Below are positions 3,521 to 47,260 of a stretch of DNA of 64,000 bases, one piece after another. The stretch spans positions 33,515-97,514 of the forward strand of contig JAAEAF010002630.1 of NCBI GenBank assembly GCA_011037195.1, written 5' to 3'. Below the pieces are notes generated by a model that was given only the letters and a program-made list of their open reading frames with translations, had not been told where the DNA came from and did no database searches. Made by a program: the position numbers and the translations under genes. Origin of the DNA: Triatoma infestans. Lineage: Eukaryota; Arthropoda; Insecta; Hemiptera; Reduviidae. Every line of letters starts with the position of its first letter. Within the stretch, counting starts at the first letter, position 1.

Positions 3521-3716
3521 CATTCACATATTCATCAAAAATGATAGGACTTTACGTATACATAACTGGTGTATTGAAATTTAATAAAAATCGAAATGTG
3601 AATTTATACATAAGTTAACTGATATTTTGTCCATCCTAGCATGCATATTTCTTTAACAGAGCATACTTAAAATTTAATCATAAAGTATCTTTTAAAATCA
3701 TGGTATTTATTAGATT

Positions 3717-3979
3717 CCGCAGAGCTAGGAAAGCATCAGTGATATTTTATCGTGATAGCCGGGGTTCTTTTTTTGTGGTCATCGACCGGTTTTCCGGGCG
3801 TTCTCGCCCACTCATCAGGATGCGTTTTTGTCAAACAATATGATAACACTGGATTTGATGCAAATCTATGTTATCACATTGTTTTTGACAAAAATGCATC
3901 CTGATGATGGGCGAACGCCCTGAAACCGGTCATGATCCGCAGAAAAGAAGCAGGCTATTATCGAAAATATCTCCTATGC
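3717..3979. mobile_element. Ribozyme-armed palindromic element, short form
   Basis: Two 120-base arms in inverted orientation with only a short loop. Hammerhead-like motifs are at 3777-3823 (-) and 3896-3938 (+). The element and the 650 bases that follow, including a SINE, recur at 41185-41890. Confidence 0.72.
3896..3938 (+). ncRNA. Hammerhead-ribozyme-like motif
   Basis: The order is CATC, CTGATGA, GGGC/GCCC hairpin with GAAC loop, GAAAC, CCGGTC. The palindrome ACCGGT can form helix III in a dimer. One G is missing after the predicted cleavage site, which weakens helix I, and a U-U mismatch closes helix II. Inference from sequence only. Confidence 0.5.
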
Positions 3980-4121
3980 TATTTTTTATTATACACAATT
4001 TTCTAATGTCTAATCATAATTTATAATAATTCCTTTTTTGTCATTAAACACACATACACACACACATAGTAATATAATCTTATAACCTTCCGCACATACA
4101 TACATCAACAAACTAACAAGT

Positions 4122-4350
4122 GTCGAGCTAGTAGTTAGCATACTGGGCTCCCACGCGAAGGACTAGGGTTCGAGTCCATCTATGGTGCCCTTAGATTTTT
4201 TTTTCTTCCTAGGAACCTCTACAGCTCACTGTCCGGTGATGGGACAGTATTGTCTGTAACGAGAGAATACTGTCCAGTTTACTGAGAAAGCTCCGGTCGC
4301 TAATGACCATAAATTTTTGACGTGCCTTAAATTTAAAAAAAATAAAAGAA
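4122..4350 (+). mobile_element. tRNA-derived SINE
   Basis: A tRNA-like head has an A-box-like GAGCTAGTAGTTAGC and a B box GGTTCGAGTCC. It is followed by the shared body (cctaggaacctctacag, tcactgtccggtgatgg) and an A-rich tail after gacgtgccttaaattt. Confidence 0.8.
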
Positions 4351-4399: not shown

Positions 4400-4615
4400 A
4401 ATCAGAGACATTTTCCATGATAGGCTGATTCTTTTCTGTGGTCATCGACCTCGGGCGTTTGCCCATTTTCAGGATGCGTTTGATAACACAGACTTGCACA
4501 GAGCAAATTCAGTTTATACACACTCGTAAACCGGTCGATGACCACAAAAAGAAGCAGGCTATCACGAAAAATGTCTCTGATATTTTCCAGCTCTGCGGTA
4601 CCAACCACCATAACA
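4400..4615. mobile_element. Ribozyme-armed element with decayed motif
   Basis: The left arm (minus sense) has lost the GAAAC block (4439-4476). The right arm is truncated to ccggtcgatgaccac and the distal end, finishing ctctgcggtaccaaccacc. Confidence 0.65.
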
Positions 4616-12160: not shown

Positions 12161-12311
12161 AATTCAACATATTTCCAGTAGCAATTAGGAATAAATTTCC
12201 TTCGTTCAAAGCTTAGTTCAGACTAAAGTCAGCTTTCATTATTAATTCTAATGGGTTTAACATGAAAATAAAAAGACATCAATTTGAGCTATCAGCTGGT
12301 AAAATGTGTAC

Positions 12312-12462
12312 CAAATCTATGTTATCACACTGTTTTGGACAAAAACAGTGTGATGATGGTTGAGAACGCCCGAAATTAGCCTGCCATAAAAAGCAGCAGG
12401 CTATTACGGGAAAATATCTCTAATCCTTTCCATCTTTGAGGAACCAATCATAACAACTAGGT
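12312..12462 (+). mobile_element. Single decayed ribozyme arm
   Basis: A lone right arm (aaatctatgttatcacactg, aacgcccgaaatt, gcaggctattacgg, gaggaaccaatcataacaac). The catalytic core is destroyed. Confidence 0.65.
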
Positions 12463-17121: not shown

Positions 17122-17425
17122 TTGTGGTTGGTTCCGCAGAGCTGGTAAGGATCAGAGATATTTTCCGTGATAGCTTCGCTTCATTTTTGTGGTCTTCGAC
17201 CGGTTTCGGGTGTTCGCCCATCATCAGGATGCTTTTTGTCAAACAGTGTGATAACATAGATTTGTACAGAGCAAATTTTGTGGAGTGTATAAACTAAATT
17301 TACCTTTGTGCAAATCTATGTTATCTCACACTGTTTGACAAACAGCATCCTGATGATGGGCGAACGCCCGAAAAGCGGTCGATGACCACAAAAAGAAGCA
17401 GGTTATCACGGAACATATCTTTGAC
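17122..17425. mobile_element. Ribozyme-armed palindromic element, short form
   Basis: Nearly complete: it starts ttgtggttggttccgcagag and has left motif 17191-17232 (-), a loop of about 25 bases and right motif 17345-17387 (+, GAAAC altered to GAAAAG). It lies 260 bases upstream of the Islet homeodomain exon. Confidence 0.78.
17191..17232 (-). ncRNA. Hammerhead-ribozyme-like motif with intact core
   Basis: Minus strand: CATC, CTGATGA, GGGC/ACCC hairpin with GAAC loop, GAAAC, CCGGTC. All invariant core positions are present. Helix II has one C-A mismatch and helix I one mismatch (GAAG instead of GATG). Activity is inferred, not shown. Confidence 0.55.
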
Positions 17426-17552: not shown

Positions 17553-17595
17553 ATTGGAGTAAGAGAAAGTCGTGTGAGTGTTTCACACCAGATTT
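17553..17595 (-). repeat. Head of the 1 kb repeat, reversed
   Basis: ggagtaagagaaagtcgtgt followed by gagtgtttcacaccagattt, the reverse of the repeat start. It lies about 90 bases before the Islet exon. Confidence 0.7.
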
Positions 17596-17683
17596 TTTTC
17601 TTTCCTTTATACAAATATACATGAAGGTATCGCTCAGTGTCTTTGTTTTGTTTGCCATAATAATGTATTTGCTTTTGTTTCAG

Positions 17684-17973
17684 ATTCCAGTGAAAGCGGA
17701 TCGAACAAGTGCCGCGAAGGTAGTGTGCGTGGCTCTGGCAAGGTCAGCTCCGATGGTAAACCGACTCGTGTAAGGACTGTATTAAATGAAAAACAATTGC
17801 ATACGTTGCGTACTTGTTATTCGGCGAATCCAAGACCGGACGCATTGATGAAAGAACAGTTAGTAGAAATGACCGGATTATCGCCTAGAGTGATACGTGT
17901 TTGGTTTCAAAATAAACGATGTAAAGATAAAAAACGGGCAATCGCTATGAAACAGCAGATGCAACAAGAAAAG
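17684..17973 (+). CDS. tup: Islet homeodomain exon
   Basis: The exon starts after the acceptor tttgtttcag and ends at the donor aag|gtaagt. It supplies two bases of a split codon, then 96 codons. After a serine- and glycine-rich linker comes a complete homeodomain (about 17764-17943), with helix 3 reading [17 protein letters not shown] glutamine-rich stretch (MKQQMQQEK) follows. No stop or frame break is present, and the high conservation against a decayed background indicates a functional exon. A reversed head of the 1 kb repeat (17553-17595) lies just upstream in the intron. Confidence 0.96.
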
Positions 17974-20900
17974 GTAAGTGATTTTTAATGTTACTAATTA
18001 CTATGTCCGGCACTATACAAAGTCATGGTGAGATCCGGTCTTCCTTGATCCAGCATCTGCTATCATGCTTTGTCTTTATCTCAGCCGCTTTACGTTTCGT
18101 AGTTTCCAATAACTAACTAGTGCCAACGGCTATTCCCATCTATCCACCTGAGTTCTCATGTGTCTTCACTTCCAGGTTGGTCCTATGTAATGACATGGCA
18201 AGGTCATAGCAATGTCAAACCTTCACAACACATAACAAAAGAAAGAATAATTTATAACTAGTGGCCTAGCCGGCCGCTGTTTTCAAGACAAGGCCGCGGC
18301 CAAACAAACAAAACCAAGGGTCAATACTTTACATCAAAGCAAGCACCGATAATCTGGCCACTGACCTAAATCGCTGGTCACCGAATTAACCAAGGTCGTA
18401 CAAAGTCGCACACTAGGACAGATGTCTTGGTGTGAGTGTTGCTAACACTGATAAAAACTTCGCCCCATTGGAAGAGGGGATGATTATACTTCAGTACGTC
18501 TTCAAGACTATTATACGAACAGCAGTTCCGCGTCCCTATACAGTTTTATTTATACTTATTTCCTTAGTTGTGCATCTTAGTTCATTTATTTTAATCATTC
18601 TAAATTATTAGTTATTTATCTCCTATTTATTTCTAAGTATTTCTTGTTAATAGTTACCATTACTCACGTTTAAATTATTGTACAAATACAGTCTATTTTT
18701 ATAAATTCAGTGTTAATAATTCGAGCACTAACTTCCAAAAATCTCTAAACTAACTTCCGCCCTCTTCAAGACATCTACTACATACCATAGGAATCACAAT
18801 AAACGATTCCACTACACCTAGAATGAAAGACATATCTTCCATGCAAGAGCTTTCTTCTTTGAAGGATGTGCTTCTAGTCTGGGTACCAAGTCATATAAGA
18901 ATGAGGAGGTGGTGGATAGGTCTGCCAAATTAGGCGCCACTCTCCCTTTCATTGGCTTTCCTGGGCTTGCTGGTGCATCTGGTGTGAAACACTCACACAA
19001 CTTTCTCTTACACCAGTTTTCAAAATTGTAATTCAACAAATTTTATAGTTAGTATAACTAAATTTAATTGAAATTCGTCGTTATTATTTTATTGGGAAAA
19101 AATCGCGAAATTTAAAAAAAAAAATTATTCAGTAAAAACGCACTTCCGGTTGATTAATTTTCTTAGTACTCTGAATTTTGTGTCTAGGTGATAGAATTGT
19201 ATAATCAACTAAGATAGTACTTTAGAGGCAAACATAACCCTGACCCTCCTATCCCCAAAAGTCCCCTTAAATGACGTCATCCGGGAGAAATGTTTAGTAT
19301 AAAAGTTGTAGCTCTTTATATGTGTAGTTCACATACTTAGTTTAAAGAAAATCGATGGGACCGTTTTCGATAAAAAAATAGGAGAAAACTGAAAAATACT
19401 TTATCAAGTAAAAACGCACTTTCGGCCAAACTCGGAATTTCATCAACATATTTAATTCTAATTAATATTATTTAGATGAATAGAATTGTATAATAAACTG
19501 AAATAAAAATAGCAAATAGCATTTTAATGGAAAACCTAATCCTTTCCGCTCCCCCAAAAGTGCCCTTAAAAGCATTTTTCCCAGAGAAATGTTTCAAATA
19601 AAAATTCTAGATCTTTGTATGTATAGTTTATATATCAAATTTAAAGAAAATCGTTAAAGGTATTTTTGAAAAAATTGTCAAAAAAGTGAAGAATAAAAAA
19701 CTTTCAGTAAAGTGGTATTTCCGGTTGAGGAATTTTGATAAGTAACGTACTGTCTGGATCCCATGGTGATTAATACCTAAACGGGAATATCAAGTTTGAA
19801 GTTTTTGCGATTTTTCATTTTTGAGCTATGCTGTCCCACACGCACACAGATGATTTTCTAAAAACCACTTTTTTTGGACTCAGTAGGACCTCAATATGGA
19901 TATTTCCGGTGAAACCACGATATCGAAAATTTGACACGATTACAATACTTCCTCTTACTAAGAATAGGAAAAAGTAAACATTCATTTTAAATAGTCCTGT
20001 CGAATTTGTGGGGTGAGATGGGGGGCAAACATTTTTGGGGACAAATAGAGTGAGGGGCAGAAAAACTTTGTTCAAGTACAAGTTGGGAGAACCCGCGCAA
20101 TTGCCGGGTGAATATGACACATAATGTAAATAAGCCAATGGTAAACATGAGCACGTGGATAGTTCAGCCTTGGTAAGGGCCTACTAAGGGGGTCCTTTCG
20201 ACATCTCCGTCTGTCTATAGGTCTGTCTGTCTCTCTGTTCTTAGGATTGATACAAAAAAACAAACGAAAATCTGAAGTGGTTCTAACTGAAGGAGGTTAG
20301 TTTTATAAGGGGAAAAGAGGGAACTGGCCGAACAGATCGTTACCCCCCATTTTCCACAGTCCCGTTTACAGAAACATTAAGTACATCTCTCAAAACGTTG
20401 CTTCCTCCCCACCAACAAGCACTTAGCAGAAAAAAAAAAAAACGGGGTCCCAAGCAGCGCCCTCAATATTGTCTGTCTCCCCATCTGTACCCGAATTTTA
20501 CTTCCTCTCACTCCTAGACCTCAAATTTGATATACCAATTTATAGGCATTACTATCGACCGCATCAGACACGGAAGACTTTACTGATTTATTTATTTATT
20601 TACACTTTTTCGTAATTTTCTCAAAAACGGCTCCAAAAGAATTTCATTAAATTTCGTGTACTATTTACACACATAAATACCTATCACTTTTTTTGTTTAA
20701 TTGAAACATTTTTCCCGGGAAAAAATTGATTTTTTGGTGGGGAGGGGGGAAAGTTCTGGGTGGAACAATAAGCATTATGCTTTTCTTTTAAATTTTCCAC
20801 AATTTCCGGTTGATGGATTTTTTTATTTTTACCCGAAACTTTCATGGTCAGATGCGGTGATAGAACCTCTAAAAAGTGGTTATGGTCAAGTTTAAGCCTG

Positions 20901-23900
20901 TTGCGATTCATCAGAGATATTTTCTCTGATAGCCTGCTTCTTTTTGTGGTCATCGACCGGTTTCCAGGCGTTCGCCCATCATCAGGATGCTTTTTTTTGT
21001 CAAACAGTGTGGTAACATAGATTTGCACAGAGCAAATTTAGTTGATACACTATCAATTCGTAAAAAGAGGTTTCCTGAATAGGCGGGAGATGGAAAAGAA
21101 AACAAAAATAGCCGTGTACAAGTCAACTTTCCTCCCAACCCTAACATATTCCTCGGAATCATGGACCATGACTAAAAAGCACAAATCAATGATTCAGGCG
21201 TCGGAAATGAGATTCCTTTAGGAAAGTTGAAGACAAAACTAAATGAGCCCGGGTCCGTAACACTACTATTCTAGCAATCGAGACAATAGAATAAAATAGG
21301 CTACGCTGGCTAGGGCATCTTCTTCGTATGCAGCCCAACCGTATTGCCCTTGTTACATATAAAACTAAAGTGGATGGCAAGCGAGGTAAAGGTCCACCCA
21401 TCATCAGGATGCGTTTGTCAAACAGTGTGATAACATAGATTTGCACAGAGCAAATTTAGTTTATACACTGACTCAATACATCATCCTTTTGATGGGCGAA
21501 CGCCCGAAATCGGTCGATGACCACAAAAAGAAGCCAGGCTATCACGGAAAATATCTCTGATGCTTACCAGCTCTGCGGAACCAACCATAACCTGCTGCGA
21601 TTTTTTGACTTTCTCTTATTCCATAGTAGATTGTTGTAGGGGATTATTACACTGCGACCTGAATGATCTATTGTGCGTCTCGGAGCCTTCTCAGTGCATT
21701 GACGGCCTCCAGACAGTGTTCTGTAGCTACAGACAACACTGCCCATCACTGGACAATGAGTTGTAGAGGCTCTTAGGAAGAGAAAATCTAAGGACAGCAT
21801 GCTGGATTCGAACCTAGGACATCCGCGTTGCTAGTCCAGCGCGCTACCACTGAGCTAATCCTTTACTTCACCCTTGGCTTACAGTTAACTAGGGACGGAG
21901 ACTCTAGTTTAGGTACAGTGTTTGTCCTTGTGTAAAGTGTAGAGTGTATGTAGTTTAAGTGTATTGTGTACTGTTCTGACGAAGTGCATGGAGTACTGGG
22001 CTGTGGTAACCTGTGGGATCGCTACTTCCCAAATAACTGCAGGCAACAGATACTCCCTTGCAGGCTACTCCTTAATAAAAAAGACACGAAATATTGCAAT
22101 GATGCCCAGATTTGTATGTGTGTCAGAATACCACAAAAACGAAAAGGATTCACAGTAAGCACAAACTTGGTATTCTTATTTAGATACAACCACCGTATCC
22201 AGACACGAAGATTTTTGGGCAAAATCCAAATGCTTTTTTTTCTCTTCTTTGTTTCAGTTTTCTGTAATTTTATCGAAAAAAAGGCCTCGCCAATGATTTT
22301 TCTTTAAACTTTGTATACTATCTATACACATTAATATCTATCATTTCAATAGGGAAGGGATTAGCTCAGTGGTAGCGCGCTGGACTAGTAACGCGGAGCT
22401 CCCGGGTACGAGTCCAGCTGCTGCCCTTAGATTTTTTCTTCCTAGTAGCCTCTTACAGCTCACTGTCCCAGTGATGGACAGTGTTGTCTGTGACGAGAGA
22501 AAACTGTCCGAAGGCGCTGGCAGTGCACTGAAATAAAAACGTATTATAAATGATATATGTAGTTGGTTCAGAGGTTTTTTTTTCAGTGCGCTCTACTGGG
22601 CCATAATATAATCAAATCACTTCTCTACCTGCCAAGATTAGTAGGTCGGTATTTATAATCACCTCTATATATTTATGTCAGCACAAATACGTAAAATTTG
22701 AGTTTAAAAAAAAAATTATCATATGAGTGTTTCACACCAGATTTTTTTTTTTTTTTTTACTTTCTCTAAATCCTAGAAAGAGCAATGTATTGCGATCGTG
22801 TCGAATTTTCGATATAGAGGTCTCCAGAGTCCGAAAAAGGTTTTTTTTTTTAAATTGATCTGTGTGTGTGTGTGTGTGCGCGCGCGCGAGCGATATTTTC
22901 TCAAAAATGTTTCAAATAAAAATGATAAAATTTCTTATCAATGCAGCAAGCATTTCCCCCAAGTTTAAAGAAAATCCTTTTAGCATGTTTCGAAAAAATT
23001 CTCGAAAAAAACCTATTCTGTCAAATCGCACTTTTTAGGTTAACTGATTTTTCATTCGAATTTGAAATTCTATCAAGGTTTCCTAATGTTTATTAATATT
23101 ATGTAGGTAGTAAAAACCATATATTATACTTGAGTGGTACTTTAGACGAAAACATAACGCTACTATTCTCCACCCCCACCAAAGAAATCCCCCCCCAAAA
23201 TCAATTTTTTTGTAAATAAAAGTGATAGCTAGATAATATACAAAGTTTAGAGTGAAAATCATTTGGAGCCATTTTTTAAGAAAATCACGAAAACTGAAAA
23301 AAAAAATCCTTCTGGGTTATGGAATTTTACTCCGAAATCTTTGGTTAGTAGTATAACCTTAAAAGGAATCAGAAAAAAGTTTGATATGATATGAATGATT
23401 CGGACAAAATCCATCATCAACCGGAAGTTGCAATTTTTCTTGATTTGCAAGTGTCAGTAATTTTCGATATCGTGTTTGCACCGGAAATATCATACCCATT
23501 TTGAAGTCCCCTGAGTCCAAGAAAAAAGAATGATTTTTTTTTTTTAATTTAAGTTGCGTCAACATCTATGGTCATTATCGCCCGGGGTCTTCTCAATGCA
23601 CTGCCGGTCTCCGGGGACAGTGTTCTCTCGCTACAGACAACACTGTCCTGTCACCGAACAGTGAGCTGTAAAAGCTCCTAGGAAGAAAAAAATCTAAGAG
23701 TATCACTGGACTCGAACCCGGGACCTCCGCGTGGGAGTCCAGTACGCTAACCATTTAGCTAATCCCTTCCCTTAGTGATTTTTAGCAATTAGTCTGAGTA
23801 GTCTGTCGTAAGCTTTGCACTTTTACATATTTTTAAAAAAAAAATTAATTTGTATTAATTGGTGTGGAGAAAAAGTGTTCAAAACCAGATTTTTACTTTT

Positions 23901-26900: not shown

Positions 26901-29900
26901 GATTTAAATGGCAAATTTTCTTCAAACTCATCATTTTTACTAATTATTTTTATTATCTTCAATTTTATATCAATGTGGAGAATCTAAACTTAATAAAAAT
27001 TACTTTTTGGGGGGGAACCATACACTCCCCCTCAACCCCAAAACTTCTTTAAATGAACTTTCTCGGGAAAAAAGATCCCACGCTAACACATAAACTACGT
27101 AAATATCAAATTTGAACTTTCCACGATTTTCCTTTTTTGAGTTTAAGCTGACTACACACACACACAATCACGGAGACCTTTTTTTTTAAAAAAAAAAAAT
27201 TCCGACTCAGGGGACCTCAAAAATGTATATATCAGGTGAAAACTCGATATCTTGGATTTGATGCGTTCGCAACATCTCTTTTTACTAGGTACCAAGGAAA
27301 TCTGGTTTTAGTAATGCTTAGCTGGTAGAAACATCCTAATGCTGGGCGAACGCCCAAAACCGGTCGTTGACCATAAAATGAAGCAGGCTATCACGGAAAA
27401 TGTCTCTGATGCTTTCCAGCTCTGTTGAACCAACCACCACAACAACTAAGGCGTCTTGTTGTTTGGGGAATAACGAAAACCATGTTTAAACACAACTGCG
27501 ACCATTATAGGAAATATAATTATCAATACTTCCACAAAACTGTCAATGGTACTTTACCTATCCCTTCTCAGATTAGCTTGTAGTATATGATATCTGAAGC
27601 CCTAGATTAGATTAGATTGCCAGAAGGGAAGGGGCGCCTCATTCCACTGCGAACCTCCATTAAGATGTCTATTGTGGATTCCCCTAAAAATCCCTCCAGC
27701 TTTGCCCACTTAAATCAGTCTAGCAAAGCTGAAAGTGGCTCCGTCAAGAAAAGCTCATACCTTCGGAGATTGCTTGTCCCCAGTTTGAAGAAACCTTGTC
27801 TCCTCATTAGATCGGCACACTCATAAAGGTTGTATACTGGGATTTCCTTCTCGATCCTGCAGAATCGGCATACCGCATTATCTGCAAGTACTAGTTGGTG
27901 CATAAACTTTTCAGCCTACAATGCCCTGTTAACAGGCCCACTCTTGAAAATCCTATATTTGGCGTCGAGAGGAACGTTCTTATTAAGAATAAAGTTAGAC
28001 CAAACCCGGTTTAAACGAGCTTAGCTATCGACACTTTATTTTCGAGGTGGGGACTAGGGTCATACGCGGAGTTCCTGCATTCCTTGATTAGCTTTACATC
28101 CTTCGGCTATGGCTCACGAGGTCCCTGGTGAATGTCTTTTAATAAAGAATTTAGCCTGCATCAGAGATATTTTCCGTGATAGCTGCTTCTTTTTTTGGTC
28201 ATCGGGTCCGGTTTCGGGCGTTCGTCCATCATCAGGATGCTTTTTGTCAAACAGTGTGATGACATAGATTTGCATAGAGCAAATTTAGTGAGTAGTTGAG
28301 TAGATCAAAATAGTTGAGTGTATCAACTAAATTTGTACTTTGCAAATCTATGTTATCACACTGTTAACGCCCGAGACCGGACCTGATGACCACAAAAAGA
28401 AGCAGGCTATCATGGAAAATATTTCTGATGCTTTCCAGCTTTACGGGACCAACCACAACAATTTAGTAGCATTCCTCTGTCTTGGTGTTCTCTTCCACCA
28501 TTTCAGACGCTGTTCTTCTATGCATTCCTTGATAAAAACTTAAATCAGGCTTCTGGGCAACTCGCAGAAGGGCTCGTGGCCAATAAAGGTATCTTTCGAG
28601 CCTTCCCTCGCCAGGTCGTCCGCCCTTTTGTTGCCAAGGAACCAACCAGATATGCCTCCGGCACCCAGGCACGTGCCAACTTATCTGAAGCCTTAATTGC
28701 TCAACGTGTTTTGGGGACCTATGACTGTGACATCCGCCCTTCTCCCTCACGAATCTACTTTAGTCCATTCATAAAGTGCATTTTTCTTTACTTTAAAAAT
28801 GTTCTTGAAGTTTCTAATTAATAGTTTTTAACATATATTTGCATTTCTTGGGTAGTCTAATGCGGCATTCAACAACTCATCTACACCTTCGCCCCAATCA
28901 GAACAGAATCATTACCTGTTGTATTTCAGTTCTATTCTCCAGATCTGCGGCTGGATGAAACCGTTCATACTTTTTCATCTAATTGCTCCATTCTTATGGG
29001 TGATGTTTGTTGAACTTTTCAGGTGGTCGTAGTTCATAGCTGGGTAACTCCTGCCTGGCTCAATTATCTCTGATAATTGTTCCAGTGATAATTCAACTGG
29101 CATTGTTTATCCCACCGTTGCCACCATGTTAAGAAACAAGTTCGTTTCCTTTTTTTTAAACGTTGTTGCGACAAACTAGATCTTGATTGAATTACCTCAT
29201 GCGTGGATTCCCATCTTGCGCCACATACATAAAATTAAGGACACTACAATGAATAGCTAAAAACTCGCAAGTCTAAGAAAAGTTTTTTTAACTGAATATT
29301 ATGAATTCTTTGGAGAATTTTTGTGGGTGTTTAACATCAATTTTATTTTGTTCCATTAGTATACCACGGCCACAAATACAAAATGGCGGATCTTGCATTT
29401 CTGCCCAATTCTCTTTTGCCTTCTTTTTCAATAATGGAATGAAAATTCTTGATTTTTTTTTCTCTATATCTCACATTAATTATATAAAACGAGTAAATAT
29501 GTTAGAAATAATTTGATTTTTTTTTAATTTTTATTGCACAATTTGATAATTTATAAAATACCTGCGAAGAGAAAATTACTAAAAAAAATAAATTCTAAAC
29601 TAGTTTTTTCATAGAAATAATTTAACTATAAATTAACCAACCACAGTATTGTAAAATGTGGGCGTGGTCAATATGATAATTCTTAATTTGTGAGTGGCCT
29701 TAGCAATACGCCCATATTTCACTGCTTCTCTTCTTCACTGTGATTGGCTAATTATTTATATAGATTTTGCCTTTTTTTTATGCCAAGCCCATTATATTAT
29801 ATTATTAAAAAAAATCTTGAGTTTCCAGGTTCAGATCGTGTCCTAGTGGTTTGCTAGAAACCAACGTTTTGCCCCATATTGCAATGAGCCTCTTCAGGTT

Positions 29901-41180: not shown

Positions 41181-41184
41181 AACT

Positions 41185-41445
41185 GTTGTGGTTGGTTACG
41201 CAGTGCTATTTTCCCGTGATAGCCTGGCTTCTTTTCGTGGACATCCGACCGGTTTCCAGGGCGGCGTTCACTCATCATCAGGATGTTTTTTTTTGTCAAA
41301 ACAGTGTGATAACACTGGATTTGATGCAAATCTATGTTATCACACTGTTTGAAAAAAATGCATCCTGATGATGGGCGAACGCCCCTGAAACCGGTTGATG
41401 ACCACAGAAAAGAAACAGGCTATCATGGAAAATATCACTCATGCT
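41185..41445. mobile_element. Ribozyme-armed palindromic element
   Basis: Left motif 41239-41285 (minus sense) and right motif 41360-41403 (plus sense: CTGATGA, GAAAC, CCGGTT, GATG). In the right motif the cleavage-site base is T, which should slow or stop cleavage. Together with its right flank it matches 3717-4395. Confidence 0.74.
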
Positions 41446-41505
41446 ATTTATTATACCCAATTTTTTTTAATGTCTAATCATAATTTATAATAATTCCTTT
41501 TTTGT

Positions 41506-41512
41506 CATTAAA

Positions 41513-41562
<50 letters not shown>
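41506..41562. repeat. (CA)n microsatellite
   Basis: About 25 CA units. The duplicated region at 4045 has only a short CA run, so the tract expanded after duplication. Confidence 0.95.
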
Positions 41563-41563
<1 letters not shown>

Positions 41564-41612
41564 ATATAACCTTATAACCTACCGCATATACTTACATCAA
41601 CAAACTAACAAG

Positions 41613-41843
41613 TGTCGAGCTAGTGGTTAGCGTACTTGGTCCAACGCGAAGGACCAGGATTCGAGTCTCCAACTATGCTGCCCTTAGATTTTTTTCTTAC
41701 TAGGAAACTCTACAGCTCACTGTCCGTCACCGGACAGTGTTGTTTGTAGCGAGAGAACACTGTCCAGAGGCCGGCAGTTTAATGAGAAGGTCTGGACGCT
41801 AATGACCATAAATGTTGACGCACCTTAAATTAAAAAAAAAATT
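41613..41843 (+). mobile_element. tRNA-derived SINE
   Basis: Same head (gtcgagctagtggttagcgt) and body as 4122-4350, tail gacgcaccttaaattaaaaa. Confidence 0.82.
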
Positions 41844-41990: not shown

Positions 41991-41999
41991 ATAAGGATC

Positions 42000-42090
42000 A
42001 CACTATTTTGACACAAAAAACATCCTGATGATGGAAAGCGGTCCATGCCCACAAAAAGAAGCAGGCTATCACGGAAAATGTCTCTGATAA
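42000..42090 (+). mobile_element. Single ribozyme arm lacking helix II
   Basis: catcctgatgatgg runs straight into aaagcggtcc, deleting helix II. The distal end is normal to gaaaatgtctctga. Confidence 0.65.
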
Positions 42091-46424: not shown

Positions 46425-47260
46425 ATTACAACTTTTGAAACAGTTCGCATATTTAAATACCTGGGATCGGTGAATAACAGTGGATAATGATGTAAAACAG
46501 GAAGTGAACCAGAGAGGCTCATGTCAACCAATAAATGCTACTATGGGACTCCTGAGATACATGAAAAGCCGTAATACATCCCAAGACCACAAAATGTAAT
46601 CTGTACAAAGTGCTAATACGCCCCCTATGGAGCTGAAGCATGGACAAGACCAAAGCGACACAGCAAAAGTTACTCCGTCTTTGAAAGTAAGATTTTAAGA
46701 AAGATATTTGGTCCAATCAAGGAAAATAAACATTATCACAGAGACATTTTCCATGACAGCCTGCTTCTTTTTGTGGTCATCGACCGGTTTTGGACGTTCG
46801 CCCATCTTCAAGATGCGTTTGTCACACAGTGTGATAACACAGACTTGCACAGAACAAATTCAGTTAACACACACTCAGTGTGCAAAAAAGAAGCAGGCTA
46901 TCACAGAAAATGTCTCTGAGCTTTCCAGCTCTGCGGAACCAACCGCAACAAAAAATGAACACTGGAGAATTCATCACAACGAGGAATTGGCAAGATTGTA
47001 TTCGAAAGTGGATTTTATTAAATATATCCGGTATGTAAGACTGCGACGGGCAGGCCATGTTGTTAGAATGGAAGAAACTGCTTTTCCCAGAAGAGTGCTG
47101 TGCAGGTTAGCAGGCTGAAAATAAGATGGCTGGATCAGGTCGCGAATGATGCAAGACAGCTGAATGTCCGAAATTGGTGGATCGTGGCTAAGGACAGAGA
47201 ATCATGGCATAGGATTCTTGAGCAGGCCAGGACCCAGTAATTGGTTGTAGCGTTCAAGGA
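46425..47260 (+). mobile_element. Jockey/RTE-like RT C-terminus, split by a ribozyme-armed element
   Basis: Left of the insertion: FETVRIFKYLGSVNN, MGLLRYMKSRNTSQ, frames with WTRPKRHSKS and ILRKIFGPIKEN. Right of it: NEHWRIHHNEELARLYSK, RLRRAGHVVRMEET, RWLDQVANDARQL. The protein resumes exactly where it broke off. Confidence 0.85.
46735..46948. mobile_element. Ribozyme-armed element inserted in an RT gene
   Basis: Left arm with motif 46775-46816 (minus sense, partly decayed), right arm truncated proximally. Outer ends atcacagagacattttcc and ggaaccaaccgcaac define the unit. Flanking aaaataaacatt / aaaatgaacact look like a target-site duplication of about 12 bases. Confidence 0.78.

Follow-up and report, generated by a model that had tools for sequence, protein, structure and literature searches.

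The hammerhead-like motif at 20951-20989, on the minus strand of the window (the whole 64-kb stretch of Triatoma infestans DNA analysed here), belongs to a set of over 10,000 nearly identical copies, in one genome, of the terminal piece of what is probably a Penelope-type jumping gene. Its core sits inside a repeat of about 170 nt and is not an isolated ribozyme, and many copies are arms of palindromic insertions, a feature that the first-pass annotation of this DNA overlooked. We interpret the repeat as pseudo-LTR-like, and each mirror-image pair of repeats as likely the product of one insertion, in which a Penelope-type enzyme primed copying at both target ends from one kind of RNA; we put the probability of this reading at roughly 0.7. 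The occurrence of one tailed and one tail-less outer end in the same pair is referred to below as the one-tail rule.

Both the insertion route of Penelope-like elements (PLEs) and the purpose of their conserved hammerheads are presented as open questions in the portions of the literature available to us, and more than 10,000 copies of one short structured repeat turn both into counting problems. The one-tail rule, the target-site duplications and the variants shared between arms constrain any insertion model, and if a two-ended reaction on a single RNA is the true reading, thousands of insertions would form a record of that reaction in one genome. PLE hammerheads and inverted, tailed pseudo-LTRs (pLTRs) are already known; within the titles, abstract beginnings and passages of the open-access literature (subscription papers lying outside this scope), no report was found of a high-copy, ORF-less family of inverted pLTR pairs, nor of a tested one-tail rule.

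The hammerhead core and the repeat that contains it

The core of this copy is arranged in type I order, and its cut is predicted between positions 20955 and 20954.

20951-20989, minus strand: hammerhead-like core CATC-CTGATGA-TGGGCGAACGCCTG-GAAA-CCGGTC-GATG, with helix I (CATC/GATG), helix II and the palindrome ACCGGT

It had been claimed that every invariant hammerhead position is present here on the minus strand, and both the sequence and the strand were confirmed: all these positions are occupied, and a strict minimal type I descriptor (helix I of 4 bp, CTGANGA, 0-1 extra base, helix II of at least 4 bp, GAAA, a palindromic helix III and TH) has this copy as its sole match in the window and 0 matches in 40 Mb of first-order random sequence. 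The motif is real as a sequence pattern, from which ribozyme activity is predicted. The five pairs ascribed to helix II require a terminal U-G pair in this copy; the distal CUGUUU/AAGCAG helix is likewise present, but its pairing equals that of column shuffles (306 of 343 cells, with 306.0 expected). An extra U after CTGATGA, previously described as a variant of several copies, does occur, but it represents the family consensus rather than an occasional variant. Helix III exists only as a palindrome, which makes its formation within a monomer unlikely, and the 74-nt monomer was found to fold no better than shuffles (z -0.67). The covariance-model check that had been proposed went against the motif, with 0 hammerhead matches at the gathering (curated) threshold of Rfam and none over that threshold when the search was relaxed to E<=10; the best match, obtained when the locus alone was searched, was to RAGATH-1 (RF03152), with 14.8 bits and an E value of 2.5 against a cut-off of 56.3 bits, and this sub-threshold RAGATH-1-hammerhead alignment lies in the expected register. 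Rfam matches to the miRNA families mir-5014 and MIR5380 (68.2 versus 101 bits and 58.4 versus 150 bits, respectively) were rejected; they track the palindromic hairpins.

The 941-Mb host assembly (13,959 contigs) was searched with a 38-nt family motif in the form to which most window copies point, with one extra T and helix II GGGC/GCCC, and 12,051 occurrences were found with at most one mismatch, compared with 0 for the reversed control. A 25-nt piece from further downstream in the repeat occurs 10,269 times genome-wide (control 0). In the window, the family holds 20 arms at E<=1e-7; besides the copy at 20951-20989, 16 anchored arms carry at least part of the motif, 13 of them whole or nearly so, and these together with one truncated arm bear out the earlier count of around fifteen further copies.

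Arms were measured on a 170-nt ruler (c1-c170), on which the hammerhead occupies c60-c97 and an ATG c70-72, and the predicted cut falls after c93. In the family, A9 of the core supplies the first base of this ATG and the two bases after it supply the rest, which makes the extra U the middle base of the start codon; the ATG begins a predicted PLE frame, and the cut site lies 24-25 nt downstream of it. The frame on the ruler translates as MGERPKPVDDHKKKQAITENISDAFQLCGTNHN and runs to the repeat end; it is open through 22 codons in 46 of the 52 index copies (loci L009-L060, selected for an intact 38-mer), and one index copy, L016, is shifted within it. In the copy at 20951-20989, the frame stops after nine codons because of one extra base. 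The outer ends of the repeat form two discrete clusters, c135-143 and c164-170, at about +69 and +101 of the frame, the +101 end lying within ...GGAACCAACCACAAC, and it is an optional AC-rich tail of about 30 nt that distinguishes tailed from tail-less ends. Five loci (L013, L014, L019, L034 and L043) have in common a stretch, about 270-390 nt long, that lies upstream of c1, which suggests a longer 5' region of the source RNA; when three frames were read by eye in several loci, no shared open frame was seen there.

Mirror-image pairs and the one-tail rule

The element containing the motif, together with its flanking duplications, spans 20897-21602 and is composed as follows.

20897-20908, plus strand: left target-site duplication, CCTGTTGCGATT
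20909-21051, minus strand: tail-less arm, consensus c1-c139, containing the hammerhead core
20977-20979, minus strand: ATG of the predicted PLE frame (A9 and the next two bases)
21052-21393: inter-arm non-PLE sequence, 88.9% identical to 561-894, by eye resembling a LINE 3' coding end
21397-21469, minus strand: extra truncated arm, ending in CTGATGATGGG, without GAAA
21436-21591, plus strand: tailed arm, ending ...CTCTGCGGAACCAACCATAAC, with the hammerhead core mutated (G5>T, A6>T)
21591-21602, plus strand: right target-site duplication, CCTGCTGCGATT, with 1 mismatch

When read by hand, this element obeys the one-tail rule: its tail-less arm lies at 20909, its tailed arm runs up to 21591, and the duplications flank the two. 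Automatic treatment had split the element because of a spurious short match, and for this reason it is absent from the 52 pairs described below. The non-PLE chunk of 561-894 and 21052-21393 lies beside tail-less arms in two elements, and was either mobilised twice or inherited from copy to copy. Because the second sense arm is without GAAA, a cis dimer is unavailable at this locus. The other copies in the window are the following.

415-1214: head-to-head pair around a captured chunk; an exception, tail-less at both ends
3715-3980: palindromic pair, one end partly tailed (c157), the other tail-less
4401-4608: head-to-head pair, left arm tail-less, right arm tailed
12311-12456, plus strand: single tailed arm, degenerate
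17122-17424: head-to-head pair of a tailed arm (17122-17278, minus strand) and a tail-less arm (17284-17424, plus strand), with flanks GAGGATCTTTT and CGGGATCTTTT
27295-27442, plus strand: single tailed arm with the hammerhead core mutated
28158-28461: head-to-head pair, left arm tail-less, right arm tailed
41184-41445: palindromic pair, the left arm with a tail after a small deletion
41997-42088, plus strand: single tail-less arm without helix II
46739-46951: head-to-head pair, left arm tail-less, right arm tailed and truncated

Two samples of pairs were analysed. Sample 1, i.e. the 64-kb window and loci L002-L060, contains 153 arms and 52 head-to-head pairs, and its orientation and duplication tables include 12 of these arms and 4 of these pairs with an arm shorter than 26 nt. 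Neighbouring arms within 1.2 kb (n=77) are head-to-head in 53 cases, tail-to-tail in 12 and in the same direction in 12 (8 and 4), and duplications scoring at least 8 flank 30 of the 52 head-to-head pairs, versus 1.9% with re-paired flanks. When the very short arms were dropped, 48 pairs remained, 4 of which were unclassifiable in the automatic end scoring; of the 44 with both ends classifiable, 41 combine a tailed end with a tail-less one, where 20,000 permutations gave a mean of 22.3 and at most 35. For sample 2, the 25-nt piece from another part of the repeat served as anchor; the sample consists of 40 regions (L090-L129) that cover 44 of 100 listed places in contig order, one place having been skipped as its locus was already covered. 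It yielded 24 pairs, one per region in 24 of the 40 regions, and the one-tail rule holds in 23 of them (permutation mean 12.2, maximum 21), while duplications scoring at least 8 flank 15 of the 24, versus 4.0% in the control. Plain exceptions to the rule are the pair at 415-1214 in the window and one pair of L002 in sample 1, and L120 in sample 2; in L020 and at 41184-41445, a tail was found by hand to be present after a deletion.

About 40% of the pairs are without a clear duplication, and the duplications that surround pairs vary in length. Head-to-head pairs are found at 30 of the 52 index loci and in 24 of the 40 sample-2 regions, so that many arms are unpaired or have lost their partner. 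The inner ends vary from pair to pair, and most pairs therefore look like separate insertions rather than one palindrome that was copied on; the gaps between arms range from -4 nt upward, with many short loops. Furthermore, diagnostic variants are common to both arms at c107 in 64 of 67 cases (48.4 expected) and at c130 in 62 of 67 (43.1 expected), in a test that used the 71 of 76 pairs whose arms were long enough. Whole-arm distance within pairs is only modestly lower than otherwise (median 0.09 versus 0.113); an arm of the median element has closer relatives than its own partner among about 20% of the other arms. The shared variants fit one RNA or one source locus per insertion; a single active source locus, rather than a single RNA, may lie behind them.

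Probable assignment to Penelope-like elements

The ~170-nt repeat is likely a PLE pLTR. This assignment is well supported by its anatomy, namely a start codon at helix II, an optional AC-rich tail, inverted pairs and target-site duplications, and the likeness to Penelope elements that had been pointed out before is upheld in this respect. Among 60 tailed arms examined, no autonomous copy or intact frame of the family was found beyond the tail, and only two copies, in one locus, share sequence directly past it. When the 34-residue N-terminal peptide of the family was compared with the 120 PLE proteins listed, nothing matched it convincingly (best E value 2.1, inside proteins), so that PLE membership rests on anatomy. 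Proteins with RT and GIY-YIG domains do occur elsewhere in the genome, and no link between them and this family was found. Short strings of the family sequence, searched in literature text, led only to papers that appear unrelated from their titles and abstract beginnings.

Further support comes from a second PLE in the same genome, which carries an unrelated hammerhead. A GIY-YIG search of the genome gave at least 38 matches over the cut-off (150 of 1,157 candidates scored), and one of these lies in an 809-aa frame in the C1030 element (locus L130). The part of this frame that was read contains RVT_1 and GIY-YIG domains, and its homologues at E<=1e-5 number 133, with several insect-named ones among the 120 listed. 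The hammerhead of this element, GGTA-CTGAGGA-A-GATTAT..ATAATC-GAAA-CGTT-TACC (L130, 323-363, plus strand), is minimal, has helices entirely different from those of the family, and ends 116 nt before the apparent PLE frame start. It is one of four sequence-unrelated hammerheads that the strict descriptor recovered over 352 kb (window and host loci), the other three being listed here.

L009, near 1066, plus strand: unrelated hammerhead motif
L010, near 2043, plus strand: unrelated hammerhead motif
L026, offset 2260 from the 5' end, minus strand: unrelated hammerhead motif

All four have one extra A after CTGARGA. As the extra base in C1030 is A and its frame starts later, the start-codon explanation of the extra base is not general. 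A frame in L009 has the look of a PLE endonuclease by eye, with no Pfam match. A different but matching hammerhead in the second PLE supports the motif as a kept PLE feature. Motif scans gave 0, 0 and 2 matches in viral contigs and 27 in prokaryotic genomes; no PLE relatives were recognised among them, and these matches, of which the viral ones were read by eye, were treated as chance.

The closest parallels come from two published systems, here compared as far as the available passages describe them. In PAc, the Poseidon PLE of Anolis carolinensis, the ORF starts at stem II and the cut lies 26 bp downstream, reverse transcription begins in an AC-rich stem loop at +111-118, and two start sites bound a 'tail' (PMC11167929). 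The Triatoma family is alike in having a hammerhead at the pLTR/ORF junction with the start codon at stem II and the predicted cut about 25 nt into the frame, and in a putative AC-rich site, some 100 nt into the frame, from which reverse transcription would begin, with two such start sites defining a tail. PAc, however, is described as a full PLE in tandem repeats, whereas the family copies sampled here are short, stop at the tail and mostly lie head-to-head. Both target strands are cut and extended by PAc in vitro, and its start site does not differ between strands (PMC11167929), whereas nearly every classifiable family pair has one of each end. The Penelope elements of Adineta vaga are reported to have inverted pLTRs with a 31-bp tail on one, to carry the first 12 codons within a pLTR, or 22 where the tail is included, and to be accompanied by target-site duplications of 8-10 bp and by foreign sequence captured between pLTRs (PMC3846280). 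Each of these features has a counterpart in the Triatoma family; the Adineta elements, as described there, are long and low in copy number, in contrast to the more than 10,000 motif copies, minimal pairs and testable one-tail rule found here.

The predicted ribozyme in the paired copies

For 30 of the 52 pairs, the palindrome was short and complete enough to be folded as a transcript of either strand, and at least 70% of the core was paired with the antisense arm in 58 of the 60 transcripts (MFE, both strands). As the antisense arm is transcribed first on either strand, the ribozyme of a paired copy is predicted to be trapped in a long hairpin, and the paired copies are predicted by this folding to be ribozyme-silent. 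In 2014 Cervera and De la Pena, and in 2017 Lunse et al., both cited in PMC7761336, are said to have described minimal type I hammerheads of PLEs with almost no helix III, which reportedly were proposed to act as dimers. The present family resembles them in its type I motif with almost no helix III, and differs in that antisense adjoins sense and is predicted to hide the ribozyme, and in the one extra base after CUGANGA that is found in the family and in the four unrelated motifs. Dimers through the palindromic helix III had also been suggested for the present motif; this idea survives only in part, since a cis dimer is unlikely in the sampled copies, whose arms are mostly head-to-head and not tandem, but two molecules could dimerise in trans, or a source element of tandem layout could supply the dimer.

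Conservation was assessed in 64 arms not selected for an intact motif, with 46 exact ones dropped and CpG positions omitted. Identity to the consensus is 94.7% in the core, 93.6% at the other motif positions, 92.8% in the downstream region and 88.2% in the upstream part; hence the core is hardly better conserved than its surroundings (0.947 versus 0.936 and 0.928). Outside CpG positions, strong variation within the motif is confined to N7 (78%), the one base that is free in CUGANGA. No covariation was detected within the family in helices I, II and III or in the distal helix, helix II showing two pairing-preserving double changes in 248 cells. Truncation ends do not pile up at the predicted cut (c94), with 2 of 153 in sample 1 and 1 of 64 in sample 2, one of the c94 ends looking by eye like an internal deletion, which argues, in the sample, against cleaved RNA as the usual template.

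It could be that the family retains its likeness to a hammerhead as a fossil that no longer functions, and that only the start codon and the tail region matter for insertion. The lack of excess conservation, of covariation and of a cut-site footprint speaks for such a fossil, as do the ribozyme mutants of PAc, in which insertion was unaffected according to the available passages (PMC11167929). Nevertheless, the 38-mer is preserved in 12,051 copies with no more than one mismatch, the sole strongly variable non-CpG base in it is the one that is free in the hammerhead core, and unrelated hammerheads in the genome keep the same core; on balance we consider a fossil unlikely.

Proposed insertion mechanism

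We infer that each pair was made in one insertion, the two target ends having been primed on one RNA or on that RNA and a sister molecule. A more specific proposal, to which we would give somewhat less than even odds, is two-ended PLE retrotransposition on a single RNA (+101/+69), with a one-tail mirror insertion as the outcome and a ribozyme that is silent in the copy and active in the source. In the broader reading, the enzyme would make staggered cuts in the target, about 8-17 nt apart, and copying could start at either of two sites just inside the frame. With both target ends on the same RNA, one polymerase would start at +101 and the other at +69, since a single site cannot serve two polymerases simultaneously; reverse transcription would then run back through the hammerhead to the 5' end of the RNA or stop early, and the two cDNAs would end up joined in head-to-head orientation, in some cases around a stretch of foreign sequence. 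Two-ended priming on the same RNA would account in one step for the one-tail rule as well as for the palindromic layout, the duplications and the variants that the arms have in common. Cleavage, if any, would be likelier in a tandem or full-length source RNA or together with the protein of the element, and hammerhead cleavage with the element's protein is reported for the Anolis PLE in the available passages (PMC11167929).

Alternatively, the palindromes might arise by self-priming, in which the first cDNA or an antisense template folds back and is copied, as has been proposed for the Adineta PLEs in the available passages (PMC3846280). Such a route is compatible with the short loops between many arms, with gaps from -4 nt, and with the variants that the arms share; however, a fold-back copy should end at the start of the first arm, whereas the outer ends are offset by about 30 nt in 41 of 44 and 23 of 24 pairs. 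Because of this fixed offset, self-priming leaves the difference between the ends unexplained, even though it accounts for the palindrome and for the variants in common, and we regard it as an improbable origin of the pairs.

Much less plausible still is the idea that the pairs are foldback or MITE-like DNA transposons with an accidental resemblance to a hammerhead. Inverted repeats, short length, high copy number and target duplications would all be expected of such elements, but the termini are asymmetric, one tailed and one not, and this asymmetry, together with the variable duplication lengths and the differing inner junctions, argues against one cut-and-paste unit; moreover, frame, tail and hammerhead coincide with PLE anatomy.

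Metazoan non-LTR retrozymes are described in the available passages as short, high-copy tandem direct repeats with type I hammerheads, and retrozyme-like repeats are reported from insects (PMC7229834). That the copies are themselves such small tandem repeats, whose hammerheads release circular RNA, is the least credible reading and the earlier comparison with retrozymes is unsupported, since adjacent arms are mostly head-to-head and not tandem (53 of 77, with only 12 of 77 in the same direction), and although the type I order, the short element and the very high copy number are shared, helix III is a bare palindrome here and the tail and the one-tail rule are PLE traits, no tail being mentioned for retrozymes in those passages.

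Other observations in the window

The palindromes adjoining 3975-4200 and 41441-41693 have a common loop junction and right flank (80%) and different left flanks. The same outer flank is present at two tail-less ends, at 343-416 and 28087-28159 (92%), perhaps as a result of insertion into the same target repeat. Among 22 window frames of at least 120 aa, 20 were scanned and none was a PLE; the scan gave a homeodomain, as well as a weak zf-RVT match and a weak phage-protein match, both below the cut-off. The homeodomain exon lies at 17578-17985 on the plus strand (PF00046, 2.7e-16; of Islet/tailup type by eye), about 150 nt downstream of the palindrome at 17122-17424, which therefore lies beside or within a likely developmental gene.
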